Assembly: GCF_031432975.1 (NCBI RefSeq)
Contig: NZ_CP133838.1
Location: 3,782,001 to 3,846,000, forward strand
Length of the DNA stretch: 64,000 nucleotides
DNA from: Buttiauxella selenatireducens
GTDB lineage: Bacteria > Pseudomonadota > Gammaproteobacteria > Enterobacterales > Enterobacteriaceae
Direction of reading: 5' to 3'
Each line of letters opens with the position of its first letter. Position 1 is the first letter of the stretch. Below are positions 23,592 to 31,515 of this stretch, one piece after another. The position numbers were made by a program, and so were the translations under genes. The notes under the pieces are model-generated. The model ran no database searches, had not been told where the DNA came from, and saw only the letters and a program-made list of their open reading frames with translations.

Positions 23592-23681
23592 GTGAGTACA
23601 GGCGTAATAGCTGGCGTGGTGCTGGTGTTTGTGCTGTTGGGATATTTAATTTATGCCCTGATTAATGCGGAGGCATTCTGA
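23592..23681 (+). CDS. kdpF: Potassium-transporting ATPase small subunit KdpF
   Basis: 29 residues, one membrane helix, starting at GTG with GAGGTGG upstream. Predicted sequence: [21 protein letters not shown], then YALINAEAF, matching E. coli KdpF almost throughout. It binds peripherally to KdpA in the membrane and stabilises the complex. Its stop shares one base with the kdpA start (TGATG), so translation is coupled. Confidence 0.93.
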
Positions 23682-25369
23682 TGGCCGCCTCCGGATTTTT
23701 ATTAATTGCCAGCTTCATGCTGGTGCTTTTCGCCCTGGCAAAACCGTTGGGCAGCGTGCTGGCTCGCTTGATTGAAGGCGAATCTGTGCCTGTTGTCGGG
23801 AAAATGGATGCGCTGTGGTGGAAAGTATTGGGGAGTGACTCCACCAGAGAAATGAACTGGAAGCACTATCTGGGAGCCATACTGTTGTTTAACGTGTTGG
23901 GTTTGCTGGTGCTTTTTGTCATCTTAATGACCCAGGGAAACTTGCCCCTCAACCCGCAGCAATTACCCGGCCTCTCCTGGCATCTGGCGCTCAATACAGC
24001 AGTCAGTTTTGTCTCCAACACCAATTGGCAGTCTTACAGCGGTGAAACCACGCTGAGTTACTTCAGCCAGATGGTCGGCCTGACGGTGCAAAACTTCTTG
24101 TCAGCCGCGACAGGGATTGCGGTAGTGTTTGCACTGATTCGCGCCTTCTCTCGCCAAAGTGCTAACACCTTGGGTAACGCGTGGGTCGATTTAACCCGCA
24201 TCACTCTCTACATCTTGTTGCCGATTGCGTTGCTGATTGCGTTGTTCTTTATCAGCCAGGGAACCTTACAGAACATCGCTCCGTATCAACCGTTCACCTC
24301 ACTGGAAGGTGTACACCAGGTGTTGCCGATGGGCCCGGTCGCCTCGCAAGAAGCGATCAAAATGTTGGGCACCAATGGCGGCGGTTTCTTTAATGCTAAC
24401 TCTTCACACCCGTTTGAGAACCCAACGGCGCTGACCAACTTCGTACAGATGCTGGCGATCTTCCTGATCCCCGCAGCACTGTGTTTCGCTTTTGGTGAAG
24501 CCGTCGGGGACCGACGCCAGGGCCGCGCTATTTTATGGGCGATGGCGGTGATTTTTGTTATCTGCGTGGTGGTGGTGATGTGGGCCGAAACTCGCGGCAA
24601 TACGCATTTCACCCTGCTCGGCGCTGACAGCAACATCAATATGGAAGGTAAAGAGAGCCGCTTTGGCATTCTGGCCACCAGCTTGTTCTCGGTGATTACC
24701 ACCGCCGCTTCTTGTGGGGCGGTCAACGCAATGCATGACTCCTTTACTGCGCTAGGCGGCATGATCCCAATGTGGCTGATGCAGATTGGTGAAGTGGTGT
24801 TTGGCGGCGTCGGCTCTGGGCTGTACGGCATGTTGCTGTTCGTTCTGCTGACGGTATTTATCGCCGGATTGATGATTGGCCGCACGCCGGAATATCTGGG
24901 TAAAAAAATCGACGTGGCAGAGATGAAAATGACCGCGATGGCGATTCTGGTGACACCAACGCTGGTGCTGCTCGGCACTGCGCTGGCGATGATGACCGAT
25001 GCGGGTCGTGCAGGGATTTTCAATCCTGGCATTCATGGTTTTAGTGAAGTGCTCTACGCGGTTTCTTCTGCCGCAAACAACAACGGTAGCGCCTTTGCCG
25101 GGTTAAGTGCCAATACGCCTTTCTGGAACATTCTTCTGGCTGTATGCATGTGGTTTGGTCGCTTCGCCGTGATTGTGCCCGTGATGGCTATCGCCGGTTC
25201 GCTGGTCACCAAAAAATCACAGTCAGCAGGCGTCGGTACTTTACCGACTCACGGCCCGCTGTTTATCGGTTTGCTGATTGGCACCGTGTTGTTAGTGGGT
25301 GCACTGACCTTTATTCCCGCCCTCGCATTAGGCCCGGTTGCGGAACACCTTTCCTTAGTGAATTTGTGA
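23681..25369 (+). CDS. kdpA: Potassium-transporting ATPase channel subunit KdpA
   Basis: 562 residues (E. coli 557). Inner-membrane ion-selective subunit of the high-affinity Kdp potassium pump, built from four repeats of a KcsA-like membrane-pore-membrane unit. The selectivity-filter regions are recognisable: [47 protein letters not shown] and [12 protein letters not shown]. It passes K+ from the periplasm to KdpB. kdpB follows after 13 bp. Confidence 0.97.
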
Positions 25370-25382
25370 TTAAGAGGCTTCC

Positions 25383-27431
25383 ATGAGTCGCAAGCAACAG
25401 GCGCTATTTGAACCATCGCTGATTCGTCAGGCGCTAATTGATTCCTTTAAAAAACTGACACCACAAGTGCAGTGGCGTAACCCGGTGATGTTTATCGTTT
25501 GGGTTGGCAGCGTGATGACCACCATTCTGGCGATCGCCATGTTCAGTGGGAAACTTCAGGGTGACGCACCGTTTACTGCCGCGATCGGCGTCTGGCTGTG
25601 GTTTACCGTGCTGTTTGCCAACTTTGCCGAAGCACTGGCGGAAGGCCGCAGTAAAGCGCAAGCCAATAGTCTGAAAGGGGTGAAGAAAACCAGTTGGGCG
25701 CGCAAATTGCGCGCGCCACAACACGATGCTCCGATGGACAACGTCCCTGCCGCTGACTTGCGTAAAGGAGACATCGTGCTGGTTGAAGCGGGCGATATTA
25801 TCCCGTGCGATGGTGAAGTGCTGGAAGGCGGCGCGTCGGTAGATGAAAGTGCGATTACTGGCGAGTCAGCACCGGTTATCCGTGAGTCCGGCGGCGACTT
25901 TGCCTCGGTCACGGGCGGGACGCGCATTCTTTCAGACTGGCTGGTGATTCAGTGCAGCGTGAACCCTGGTGAAACCTTCCTCGACCGTATGATTGCCATG
26001 GTGGAAAGCGCACAACGCCGCAAAACGCCAAACGAAATTGCGCTGACGATTTTACTGGTGGCGCTGACGATTGTCTTTTTACTGGCAACCGCAACGCTTT
26101 GGCCGTTCTCGCAGTATGGCGGCGTGGCGGTCAGCGTCACGGTGCTGATTGCACTGCTGGTCTGTTTGATTCCAACCACCATCGGCGGGCTACTTTCCGC
26201 GATTGGTGTCGCCGGGATGAGCCGTATGCTGGGCGCAAACGTCATTGCCACCAGCGGACGTGCTGTCGAAGCCGCAGGTGATGTCGATGTGTTGCTGTTG
26301 GATAAAACCGGCACCATCACGCTGGGTAATCGCCAGGCTTCTGAGTTTTTACCCGCTCCGGGGATTGAAGAAAAAACCCTGGCCGACGCAGCACAGCTTT
26401 CGTCACTTGCCGATGAAACGCCTGAAGGCCGCAGCATCGTGGTGCTGGCAAAACAGCGCTTTAACCTGCGCGAGCGCGATGTGCAAAACTTGCATGCCAC
26501 CTTTGTGCCGTTCACCGCGCAAACGCGAATGAGCGGTATCAACATTCAGGACCGCATGATTCGCAAAGGTTCGGTTGATGCCATTCGTCGCCACGTTGAA
26601 GCCAACGGCGGCCAGTTCCCGCCACAGATTGATACGCTGGTGGAAGGTGTGGCACGCACGGGCGGAACACCGCTGGTGGTTGCTGAAGGTGCCAATGTGC
26701 TGGGCGTTATCGCGCTGAAAGATATCGTCAAAGGCGGCATCAAGGAACGTTTCGCTCAACTGCGCCAGATGGGCATTAAAACCGTCATGATCACCGGTGA
26801 TAACCGCCTGACGGCTGCGGCGATTGCTGCGGAAGCCGGTGTGGATGATTTCCTGTCAGAAGCGACTCCGGAAGCCAAACTGGCCCTGATTCGCCAGTAT
26901 CAGGCCGAAGGCCGTTTAGTCGCGATGACCGGCGACGGCACCAACGATGCGCCTGCCCTGGCACAAGCGGATGTGGCGGTTGCCATGAACTCCGGTACGC
27001 AGGCGGCGAAAGAAGCCGGCAATATGGTGGACCTGGATTCCAACCCCACCAAGTTGATTGAAGTAGTACACATCGGTAAACAGATGCTGATGACCCGTGG
27101 TTCGCTGACCACTTTCAGTATTGCCAACGACGTGGCGAAGTATTTCGCGATTATCCCCGCCGCGTTCGCCGCCACTTATCCGCAGCTCAACGCGCTGAAC
27201 GTGATGCATCTGCACTCCCCTGCATCCGCGATTTTAAGCGCGGTGATTTTTAACGCGTTGATCATCATCTTTTTGATTCCGCTGGCCTTGCGCGGTGTGA
27301 GCTACAAACCGCTAAGTGCCGCAGCCATGTTACGTCGCAATCTCTGGATTTACGGTCTGGGCGGTTTAATCGTGCCGTTTATTGGTATCAAAGCTATCGA
27401 TTTGATACTGACCATTTTGGGCCTGGTTTAA
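25383..27431 (+). CDS. kdpB: Potassium-transporting P-type ATPase subunit KdpB
   Basis: 682 residues, the E. coli length. P-type ATPase that drives K+ uptake. Asp307 in [12 protein letters not shown] is the residue phosphorylated by ATP. Other landmarks are the A-domain [16 protein letters not shown], the nucleotide-binding [11 protein letters not shown] region, [14 protein letters not shown] and the hinge [18 protein letters not shown]. The membrane region contains the [11 protein letters not shown] helix. All key catalytic residues are intact, so the pump itself looks functional even though kdpD is broken. Confidence 0.98.
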
Positions 27432-27441
27432 GGGGAAAAAA

Positions 27442-28026
27442 ATGACTACCTTACGTCCCGCTATACTGTTACTGATTCTGCTCACCCTGATTACCGGTGG
27501 ACTTTACCCGTTGCTGACCACCCTTTTAGGCCAGTGGTGGTTCCCGGCGCAAGCCAACGGCTCGTTAATCCTTGATACTAACGTCGTACGTGGTTCAAGC
27601 CTGATTGGACAAAATTTTACCCAGCCAACGTATTTGCAAGGCCGCCCTTCTGCTACGGCAGAAACTCCCTATAATCCCATGGCCTCTGGCGGTAGTAATC
27701 TTGCGGGCAGTAACCCCGAGCTCGACAAAGTGATTACCGAGCGTGTAGCAGCGTTGCGCGCGGCGAATCCGCAGGCGAATCCGGCGGTTCCCGTTGATTT
27801 GATAACGGCTTCGGCTAGCGGTCTGGACGGGCAGATTTCCCCAGAAGCGGCAGCCTGGCAGATTCCACGAATTGCCAAAGCGCGCCATTTACCCGTAGAG
27901 CAAGTCACGCGTCTGGTGGCGGAAAATACCACGCAGCCTCTGGTTGGTTTCATCGGTAAACCGGTGGTGAATGTGTTACTGGTTAACCGGGCGTTGGATG
28001 ACTTACAAAGTCACCCAATACCCTAA
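27442..28026 (+). CDS. kdpC: Potassium-transporting ATPase subunit KdpC
   Basis: 194 residues (E. coli 190). One N-terminal membrane helix ([19 protein letters not shown]) and a periplasmic domain with [14 protein letters not shown] and [20 protein letters not shown]. KdpC is needed for assembly and raises the potassium affinity of KdpFAB. The last residues, IP and the TAA stop, come from the end of ERIC copy 3, so the C-terminus is a few residues longer than in E. coli and has an element-derived end. Confidence 0.95.
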
Positions 28027-28142
28027 ATAATTCGAGTTTTGGGTAGGCGGCCAGGGAGCAAATCCCCAGGAGCTTACTAAAGTAAGTGACTGGGGTTTGT
28101 GAGTGCAGCCAACACCCCCACAACTTGAAGTATGACGGGTAT
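28018..28142 (+). repeat. ERIC element (copy 3), between kdpC and kdpD
   Basis: An ERIC bounded by ATACCC and GGGTAT, with the canonical core AAATCCCCAGGAGCTTAC, AAGTAAGTGACTGGGG, then CAGCCAACAC. It begins inside the kdpC stop region and ends 12 bp before the kdpD start. In E. coli kdpC and kdpD are nearly contiguous, so the element is an insertion within the kdpFABCDE operon. As RNA it would form a long hairpin between the pump genes and the sensor genes. Confidence 0.93.
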
Positions 28143-28154
28143 AAAGGAATAGAG

Positions 28155-30841
28155 ATGACAGAAGAACCCCTGCGCCCTAACCCAGATAAATTGCTGGAAC
28201 AGGTCAATCGCCCGACCCGCGGTAAGCTGAAAATATTCTTCGGTGCGTGTGCTGGCGTGGGGAAAACCTACGCCATGTTGCAAGAAGCGCAGCGACTGCG
28301 AGCGCAAGGTCTGGATATCCTGATTGGCGTGGTGGAAACACATGGCCGCAAAGAGACCGCCGCACTGCTGAACGGGCTGGCTATCCAGCCCGCAAAACGA
28401 CTGCACCACCGTGGGCGCTGGGTGCAAGAGTTTGATCTCGACGCGGCACTTGCGCGTAATCCTGCGCTGATCCTGATGGATGAACTGGCACACAGTAACG
28501 CGCCAGGTTCGCGCCACCCCAAGCGCTGGCAAGATGTGGAAGAGTTGCTGGATGCCGGGATCGACGTCTTTACCACCGTCAATGTGCAGCATCTTGAAAG
28601 CCTGAATGACATCGTTGGCGGCGTCACGGGTATTCAGGTACGCGAAACGGTGCCCGACCCAATTTTTGATGCCGCCGATGAAATCGTGTTGGTCGACCTC
28701 CCCCGGACGATTTACGCCAGCGCCTGCATGAAGGCAAAGTGTATATCTCCGGCCAGGCCGAACGCGCCATCGAGCACTTTTTCCGCAAAGGAAATTTGAT
28801 TGCCCTGCGCGAACTGGCGTTGCGCCGCACCGCCGACCGCGTTGACGACCAAATGCGGGCCTGGCGCGACAGCCAGGGGCAGGAAAAAGTCTGGCATACA
28901 CGCGACGCCATTTTACTGTGTATCGGCCACAGTTCCGGCAATGAAAAACTGGTGCGCACGGCTGCGCGGTTGGCTGCAAAATTGGGCAGCGCCTGGCATG
29001 CTGTGTATGTCGAAACGCCACAACTTCACCGCTTACCCGAACATCAACGCCGCGCTATTCTCAGCGCATTGCGCCTGGCTCAAGAATTGGGTGCAGAAAC
29101 AGCCACGCTTGCAGACCCCGCCGAAGATAAAGCGGTTTTGCGTTACGCCCGGGAACATAACCTCGGGAAAATTATTATTGGTCGGCGGACGACACGACGC
29201 TGGTGGAGCCGCGAATCTTTTTCTGACCGACTGGCCCGCCGTGCGCCAGACCTTGATTTAGTGATTGTTGCGCTTGACGACAAACCGTCTGTTGCCTCTC
29301 CTTCGACGCCCGACATGCGCAGTTTCACGGAAAAGTGGCGCGTGCAAATGCGCGGATGCGCTGTCGCGATTGCGCTTTGCGCCCTGACGACGTTTATCGC
29401 AAACCAGTGGTTAATGGCCTTCGATGCCGCCAACCTGGTCATGCTTTACTTGCTCGGCGTCGTCATTGTGGCGCTGTTTTATGGTCGCTGGCCTTCGGTG
29501 CTGGCGACCGTGATAAGCGTACTCAGTTTTGATCTGTTTTTTATTGCGCCACACGGCACGCTGGCCGTCTCTGATATCCAGTATTTGTTAACCTTCGCGG
29601 TGATGCTCACCGTTGGCCTGGTTATCGGTAATCTCACCGCTGGCGTGCGTTATCAGGCGCGAATTGCTCGTTATCGCGAGCAACGCACTCGCCACTTGTA
29701 TGAGATGTCAAAAGCCCTCGCCGCTGAACGCACTCCGCAGGATATTGCGGCCACCAGCGAGCTGTTCATTAATAACAGTTTCCATGCCCGCGCCCAGCTA
29801 TTGTTACCTGACGCGCAGGGTGTGTTAGAGCGAGTCAATGCGCGAGGTGAGCCGCAAAACTGGGATGAAGCCATCGCCCGCTGGAGCTTTGATAAAGGCC
29901 AACCCGCCGGTGCTGGCACCGATACGCTGCCAGGTGTGCCCTATCAAATCCTGCCTCTCAAAACGCCGGAAAAAACCCTTGGGTTGCTGATTGTCGAGCC
30001 GAGTAATTTGCGCCAGTTGATGATTCCCGAGCAACAGCGCTTGTTGGAAACGTTCACGCTGTTGGCGGCCACTGCCCTGGAGCGGCTATTGCTGACCGCA
30101 AGTGAGGAGCAGGCCCGGTTATCCAGCGAACGCGAGCAAGTGCGTAATTCGTTGCTTGCGGCGCTGTCTCATGATTTGCGAACCCCGTTGACCGTACTGT
30201 TTGGCCAGGCAGAAATACTAACGCTGGATTTGGCTTCTGAAGGGTCAAAACACGCCCCACAAGCCAACGACATTCGCCAGCATGTTCTCAATACCACGCG
30301 TCTGGTGAATAATTTACTGGATATGGCGCGTATTCAGTCCGGTGGTTTTAATCTGCGTAAAGAATGGCTAACCCTTGAAGAAGTGGTCGGTAGCGCATTG
30401 AAGATGCTGGAACCGAGCCTCGGCGGGCGGCATATTGCGCTGGCGCTGCCCGACCCACTGATGCTGATTCATGTTGATGGTCCGCTGTTTGAACGCGTGT
30501 TGATCAATTTGCTGGAAAATGCCGTGAAATATGCAGGGTTCCAGTCAAACATTGGCATTCGTGCGCAAGCACTGACTGATAAACTGGATCTTGAAGTCTG
30601 GGACGATGGTCCGGGAATTCCGGCTGGCAAAGAACAGCTCATCTTTGATAAGTTTTCCCGGGGCAATAAAGAATCGGCCATTCCGGGTGTTGGCCTGGGT
30701 CTGGCAATTTGCCAGGCGATCATCGAAGTTCACGACGGGAAGATTTTTGCCGTGAATCGCCCGGAAGGTGGCGCAAGTTTTCATGTTATTTTACCTCTAC
30801 CACCATTACCTGAGCTGGCTGAGATGAACGAGGCGTTGTGA
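28155..30841 (+). pseudogene. kdpD: Sensor kinase KdpD, split by a one-base frameshift
   Basis: Turgor/potassium sensor kinase that controls kdpFABC through KdpE. Two pieces are seen. The first (28155-28799, 214 residues, ATG after AAGGAATAGAG) has the KdpD N-domain with Walker A GACAGVGKT and Walker B LILMDELAHSN, then drifts into unrelated residues after VDLP. The second, in another frame from about 28701 to 30841, resumes at DDLRQRLHEGKVYISGQAERA and carries the universal-stress-like domain, four membrane helices, GAF domain, HisKA (AALSHDLRTPLT) and ATPase domains. One extra C in the C5 run at 28700-28704 would restore an 895-residue protein (E. coli 894). It is a real inactivating mutation, a variable tract or a sequence error. 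Confidence 0.9.
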
Positions 30842-31515
30842 TATCAGTACTGATTGTTGAAGATGAAAAAGAGATCCGCCGTTTCTTGCGCACTGCGCTG
30901 GAGGCTGAGTCATTGCGCGTTCATGAAGCCGAAACCTTGCAACGTGGCTTGCTGGAAGCGGCCACGCGTAAACCTGATTTAGTGATCCTCGACCTCGGTT
31001 TACCTGACGGTGATGGCATTGATTTTATTCGCGACTTCCGCCAGTGGAGCCAAACACCGATTGTGGTGCTCTCCGCTCGTAGCGATGAGCAAGTAAAGAT
31101 AGACGCGCTTGATGCGGGTGCCGACGACTATCTCAGTAAACCGTTTGGCATTGGTGAGCTACAGGCGCGTCTACGCGTCGTCTTACGCCGCCATGCAAGC
31201 CTTGCGCAACCCGATCCGGTTTATCAGTTTTCAAATATTACCGTTGACCTTGCCACCCGTCGCATCACGCGGGATGGCGCAGAAATCCATCTCACGCCGA
31301 TTGAGTTCCGCCTGCTCGCAACCCTTATCAATAATCACGGAAAAGTGCTGACCCAACGCCAGTTACTCAGCCAGGTTTGGGGGCCAAATGCCGTGGAACA
31401 CAGCCATTATCTACGCATTTATATGGGGCATTTACGCCAGAAGCTGGAGACGGATCCGGCGCGCCCAAGCCATCTGCTTACCGAAACCGGAATCGGCTAC
31501 CGTTTTATGCTTTAA
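30838..31515 (+). CDS. kdpE: Response regulator KdpE
   Basis: 225 residues, as in E. coli. OmpR-family regulator: a receiver domain with Glu8/Asp9, phospho-acceptor Asp52 in VILDLGLPDGDG and Lys101 in YLSKPFG, and a winged helix ending GIGYRFML. It activates kdpFABC. It starts at GTG, which overlaps the kdpD stop (GTGA), so its translation would normally be coupled to kdpD. With kdpD frameshifted, coupling would depend on ribosomes starting again in the second kdpD fragment. Confidence 0.96.
   Translation: MISVLIVEDEKEIRRFLRTALEAESLRVHEAETLQRGLLEAATRKPDLVILDLGLPDGDGIDFIRDFRQWSQTPIVVLSARSDEQVKIDALDAGADDYLSKPFGIGELQARLRVVLRRHASLAQPDPVYQFSNITVDLATRRITRDGAEIHLTPIEFRLLATLINNHGKVLTQRQLLSQVWGPNAVEHSHYLRIYMGHLRQKLETDPARPSHLLTETGIGYRFML

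Follow-up and report, generated by a model that had tools for sequence, protein, structure and literature searches.

The window analysed here, a stretch of 64,000 nucleotides from Buttiauxella selenatireducens, spans bases 3,782,001–3,846,000 of a 5,218,828-base single-contig genome and contains a kdpFABCDE operon. In the deposited sequence, kdpD (28155–30841, plus strand) loses its reading frame at a run of five C residues. The genes upstream, kdpFABC, and downstream, kdpE, are all open and complete, as a first-pass annotation of this DNA had stated, with kdpF recognized by position and sequence only. The features of the locus are as follows.

23592–23681, plus strand: kdpF, 29 amino acids, open; named by position and sequence, without a family call
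23681–25369, plus strand: kdpA, intact
25383–27431, plus strand: kdpB, intact; Ser162, the target of the KdpD serine kinase according to the excerpted text of PMC11018627, is kept
27442–28026, plus strand: kdpC, intact
28155–28799, plus strand: ORF of the kdpD 5′ fragment, 214 codons, of which 183 are native (with Walker A and Walker B) and 31 are out of frame; stop TGA at 28797–28799
28700–28704, plus strand: C5 run marking the frameshift; Buttiauxella sp. A111 has C6
28706–30841, plus strand: 3′ part of kdpD in the downstream frame, with the end of PF02702, Usp, DUF4118, GAF, HisKA and HATPase_c; first listed start GTG 28739
28796–28798, plus strand: candidate restart site, a TTG (E. coli residue 215) that is read in the downstream frame and overlaps the TGA closing the 5′ fragment; AAAGGA precedes it at 28787–28792
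30838–31515, plus strand: kdpE, intact

In the list of open reading frames, the frame that begins at the ATG at 28155 closes after 214 codons, and a different frame carries the remainder of KdpD, without a stop, as far as 30841. A profile search finds PF02702 complete in neither frame: profile positions 2–165 lie in one and 163–210 in the other, and the two matches meet at 28700–28709. The earlier assignment of the break to the C5 run was thus correct, as confirmed by this two-frame match and by the single indel that separates the gene from that of A111. The earlier statement that the kinase part is cut off from the Walker A/B domain did not hold, since the break lies within the N-terminal PF02702 domain itself, at about position 165 of 210. 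Usp, DUF4118, GAF, HisKA and HATPase_c follow in order, all in the downstream frame.

The KdpD of E. coli is a tandem serine/histidine kinase (PMC11018627), with which the present locus shares the kdpFABCDE gene order, the domain order, Walker A and Walker B, and Ser162 of KdpB. According to the same paper, E. coli KdpB is phosphorylated at Ser162 by residues 1–230 of KdpD, an atypical serine kinase whose activity requires Walker A, the Walker B residues D109/E110 and the pair W39/R190; W39 is said to contribute to holding the ATP adenine in place. In an alignment with the E. coli protein, the frame here is broken at residues 183–184, within the serine-kinase domain, and the equivalent of R190 falls just 3′ of the break. 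The first fragment retains Walker A and Walker B but lacks the final ~45 positions of PF02702, which include the R190 equivalent, and no single chain carries Walker A/B together with this arginine. Codon 39 (28269–28271) encodes Tyr where E. coli has W39. The first fragment matches one solved structure, 2r8r (a 228-residue chain), and the match spans 3–186.

The nearest relative that we found, Buttiauxella sp. A111 (L026, NZ_BJFN01000003.1), is 97.6% identical over 7,777 aligned bases of the kdp region. The sole indel in these bases is the C run, which has five residues here and six in A111, where kdpD is one open frame. Aligned with a single gap, the A111 gene would comprise 2,688 nt, or 895 codons plus a stop, the length that the first-pass annotation had obtained for kdpD by adding one C; as it had also noted, this is one codon more than in E. 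coli, whose KdpD (strain E69) has 894 amino acids. The comparison with sister strains that it had proposed extends this picture, as kdpD is open in a single frame in all 11 other Buttiauxella genomes (19 rows; 899–938 codons from stop to stop). At the C run, each of the 100 aligned rows from relatives, among which some genomes recur, has one base more than the window.

In a pairwise count against A111, synonymous differences number 19 nucleotides in the 5′ part of kdpD (543 nt) and 67 in the 3′ part (2,133 nt), and changed codons 5 and 7, respectively. The gene carries a single lesion, with 86 synonymous nucleotides and 12 changed codons overall and no excess of amino-acid changes. Since amino-acid changes are few in both parts, any inactivation must be very recent, and an old pseudogene was set aside because of the low count. 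A patch of kdpD at 29000–29126 has 25 differences from A111 in 126 nt and is closest to Buttiauxella sp. B2 (15 differences); A111 is closest in this interval to B. agrestis and to genome G010 (16 and 17 differences, respectively). The patch looks like a short recombination tract. We also considered import of a broken allele by recombination and rejected it, because the mosaic patch (~29000–29126) is downstream of the break and its frame stays open.

Among 198 genomes of the family, PF02702 is present in 109, this genome included, and is found as two pieces in different frames only here and in G054. G054 is a single contig in which kdpD is spread over several frames, and in G188, also a single contig, kdpD is likewise matched in different frames. 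However, these assemblies are rated 49% (G054) and 91% (G188) complete and contain several kdpD frame changes, whereas the present genome is rated 100% complete and contains one. Short open kdpD frames occur in G188 (393 codons), G130 (L222; 362), G106 (L225; 745) and G137 (L224; 814). E. coli KdpD is matched in several frames in G054, G188 and G130; in G137 the frame changes near KdpD residue 794, and in G106 the match stops at residue 642. In G013, one TGA was counted within the PF02702 match. Across E. coli genomes, kdpD was found in 5,368 of 5,426, with at least 80% of the query covered in 5,363, although these survey rows are blind to one-base indels and give no frameshift rate. A plasmid search with kdpD returned a single match (75% identity), to the Klebsiella aerogenes record LR134125.1, a 770-kb sequence filed as a plasmid in which kdpD is annotated in three pieces (kdpD_1 to kdpD_3). 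Among the matches listed by literature searches on kdpD frameshifts or pseudogenes and on kdpD phase variation, no report of the present lesion was seen, and the one paper matching a search on kdpD with Buttiauxella concerns Chryseobacterium.

Run lengths elsewhere in the assembly were compared with A111 over 921,560 aligned bases (593 kb and a second region of 329 kb; 97.7–97.8% identity). Under a strict filter, which kept only indels flanked on both sides by 12 nearly identical bases without gaps, one-base differences in C/G runs of at least 4 were one-sided, with 14 runs shorter here and 1 shorter in A111 (binomial p 0.001); for A/T runs the counts were 22 and 15 (p 0.32). Under a loose filter, in which only the two flanking bases had to match and differences of any size were counted, 16 C/G runs of at least 4 were shorter here and 3 in A111 (p 0.004), and 29 and 15 A/T runs, respectively (p 0.049). 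The C/G excess is thus present under both filters, and the contrast between C/G and A/T under the strict filter only. Run shortening in this assembly is one-sided, and more weakly so for A/T.

A similar tendency is seen within genes, with ORFs called mechanically, longest first and at least 120 codons long, so that assignment to ORFs is approximate. Inside ORFs of both genomes, 9 isolated one-base indels are shorter here and 2 are shorter in A111 (p 0.065); elsewhere the counts are 47 and 34. C/G runs of at least 3 contain or adjoin eight of the 9 and one of the 2, and in two of the eight an A is missing between GGG and GGG. Over all indels, the test for C/G context gives p 0.09, which, like the 9-to-2 count, is no more than suggestive. 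At one of the nine, at 2,580,884, the ORF is longer here and not broken, and at one of the two, at 2,239,203, the ORF is shorter in A111. In the 593-kb region, 483 of 533 A111 ORFs are full length here and 6 are split, compared with 485 of 643 full length and 4 split in the reverse direction; in the 329-kb region, 251 of 307 are full length and 5 split, and in reverse 252 of 308 and 5. These split rows include several antisense and start-region ORFs, such as the one antisense to kdpD, and are not counts of broken genes. The clear split genes of the 593-kb region are kdpD and two ORFs near 3,708,985 and 4,081,139, which from a reading of their sequences, without a family call, we take to be methyltransferase-like and enolase-superfamily-like, respectively. 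All three are one base shorter in the present genome. Outside the window, one-base ORF shortenings relative to A111 in or beside G/C runs, with split matches, are at genome positions 3708985 and 4081139, the two sites just named, and at 2559590, 2316653 and 2263709; two of the five have an A missing between GGG and GGG.

Most C/G runs are nonetheless unchanged. Inside ORFs of the first 593 kb, 17 of 18 six-base runs and 180 of 181 five-base runs keep their length, and a general collapse of C6 runs was set aside on the former count; over the 922 kb, 44 C/G runs of length 6 have the same length in both genomes and 4 are shortened here. In the first 593 kb, shortened C/G runs of at least 5 make up 5 of 75 outside ORFs and 2 of 200 inside. 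Since shortening is relatively commoner outside ORFs, and error would be blind to this distinction, part of the bias is real evolution filtered by selection. Over-calling of some runs in A111 may also contribute, but does not apply to kdpD, whose frame is open there. We read the run bias as a moderate technical bias combined with real evolution.

How, then, should the break in kdpD be interpreted? The frameshift is genuine in the deposited sequence, but the organism itself most likely lacks it. With a probability of roughly 60%, we attribute the break to residual base-calling or assembly error, in which the C6 of an intact kdpD would have been written as C5. A base is missing relative to A111, the relatives have open frames, and runs are shortened in one direction; because other runs, too, tend to lack one letter here, an error in sequencing is more probable than a genuine loss. 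The bias is probably technical in part and may have produced the C5 at kdpD. Base-calling error, which the first-pass annotation had raised as a possibility, is now the best-supported reading, with C/G runs of at least 4 shortened 14 to 1 under the strict filter and 16 to 3 under the loose one. According to an excerpt of PMC12007338, long-read errors are mostly homopolymer indels and, in the assembly studied there, were mainly false deletions. Where singleton frameshifts are confirmed by homology, sequencing errors are expected rather than genuine indels (PMC3711429, excerpt). Several points count against an error: in PMC12007338 it was A/T stretches that most often carried deletion errors, the genome has a completeness rating of 100%, most runs are unchanged, the C/G-only character depends on the filter, and the 9-to-2 count reaches only p 0.065. 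If the C6 was under-called, as other runs in the contig presumably were, the strain would have an ordinary KdpD, whose histidine kinase would control kdpFABC expression via KdpE and whose serine kinase, by homology with E. coli, would phosphorylate KdpB Ser162. More generally, homopolymer frameshifts may persist even in a single-contig genome rated complete, and alignment to a close relative can reveal a run bias without reads.

The main rival is a real, recent null mutation of kdpD by slippage in the C6 run, which we regard as possible and hold only tentatively. Loss of one base by slippage is an ordinary event in a C6 run, and the need for kdpD is conditional. The difference between C5 here and C6 in the sister strain A111, together with the mostly unchanged C/G runs of this assembly, is consistent with such an event. 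The one-sided run shortening argues against it, and the few amino-acid changes in both parts of kdpD would require the null to be very recent. The genome also contains two TrkH-family matches and one Kup-family match without internal stops, so loss of kdpD should be tolerated in ordinary potassium. If the mutation is real, the position of R190 just 3′ of the break, in a kinase whose activity in E. coli requires Walker A/B and W39/R190 (PMC11018627), suggests what would be left: a 214-amino-acid N-terminal fragment in which the serine-kinase domain has lost its end and the Arg that binds adenine, and hence no complete serine kinase. Little or no histidine kinase would be inserted in the membrane, kdpFABC would be poorly induced at low potassium, KdpB Ser162 would stay unphosphorylated, and Trk and Kup would carry potassium uptake. 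Such a strain would be a natural test of potassium homeostasis without KdpD serine-kinase control of the Kdp pump.

Could a broken kdpD be tolerated through recoding or restart? The ribosome might slip by −1 on the C run, or might stop at the TGA at 28797–28799 and restart at the overlapping TTG at 28796, so that residue 215 onward would form a histidine-kinase polypeptide of its own; we find this scarcely credible. Judged from the sequence, the TTG at 28796–28798 would be the best-placed new start for the 3′ part: it overlaps the stop, AAAGGA ends 3 bases before it, and Usp, DUF4118, GAF, HisKA and HATPase_c are all encoded 3′ of it. In E. coli, potassium limitation still elicits a response from a KdpD in which the N-terminal region and the first two membrane spans are missing, and loss of residues 12–228 or 12–395 deregulates the phosphatase (PMC2714519). 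However, the motif lies within a stretch that codes for RKGNLIA, also present in E. coli KdpD, and thus need not be an adaptation for restart. The restart polypeptide would also lack the SRP-binding residues 22–48; in E. coli, membrane insertion was impaired when the 50 N-terminal residues were deleted (PMC2440551). Programmed frameshifting was set aside since the run is not conserved: a C run of at least 5 occurs in 24 of the 100 relative rows and none longer than 3 in the other 76, and every row exceeds the window by one base there. Naturally split KdpDs with separate serine-kinase and histidine-kinase chains exist (PMC11018627), and two polypeptides would here too jointly cover KdpD. In those systems, however, the KdpD domain is whole, and the commonest natural split described, into a KdpD/Usp protein and a TM/GAF/kinase protein, leaves uncut the serine-kinase domain that is cut here. 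That KdpD is really split inside this domain, with post-translational control of KdpFABC lost, the histidine kinase supplied by reinitiation at TTG 28796 and the two activities uncoupled, is in our view a highly improbable proposal.

We consider it equally improbable that the C run is a phase-variable switch whose length changes reversibly, toggling KdpD, as the first-pass annotation had considered possible. The difference between C5 here and C6 in A111 would fit such a switch, and a C10 tract in kdpD of Bordetella pertussis is listed among significant homopolymeric tracts in the excerpt of PMC1891110. However, a tract of 5–6 nt is below the 7-nt minimum given for such repeats (PMC3711429), and phase variation was set aside because the tract is too short. 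The C6 run is also confined to A111 among the 11 other Buttiauxella genomes; at this site the C run is at most 3 in 76 of the 100 relative rows, 5 in 16, 6 in 6 and 7 in 2. Nor do the C/G runs of length 6, with 44 equal in both genomes and 4 shortened, suggest a readily changing length.

Two further features of the region lie around the 5′ end of kdpD. On the minus strand, an antisense ORF of 314 codons extends over kdpD at 28077–29021. As it matches A111 DNA in two frames that meet at the break, it was opened by the kdpD frameshift and is no gene. Between kdpC and kdpD, a repeat at 28021–28145, which from its sequence we take to be ERIC-like, has 42 matches in the genome, itself included. The segment 28020–28160 folds strongly as RNA (−51.8 kcal/mol, z −4.9), and the kdpC–kdpD spacing equals that of A111 and exceeds that of the 17 other relatives measured.
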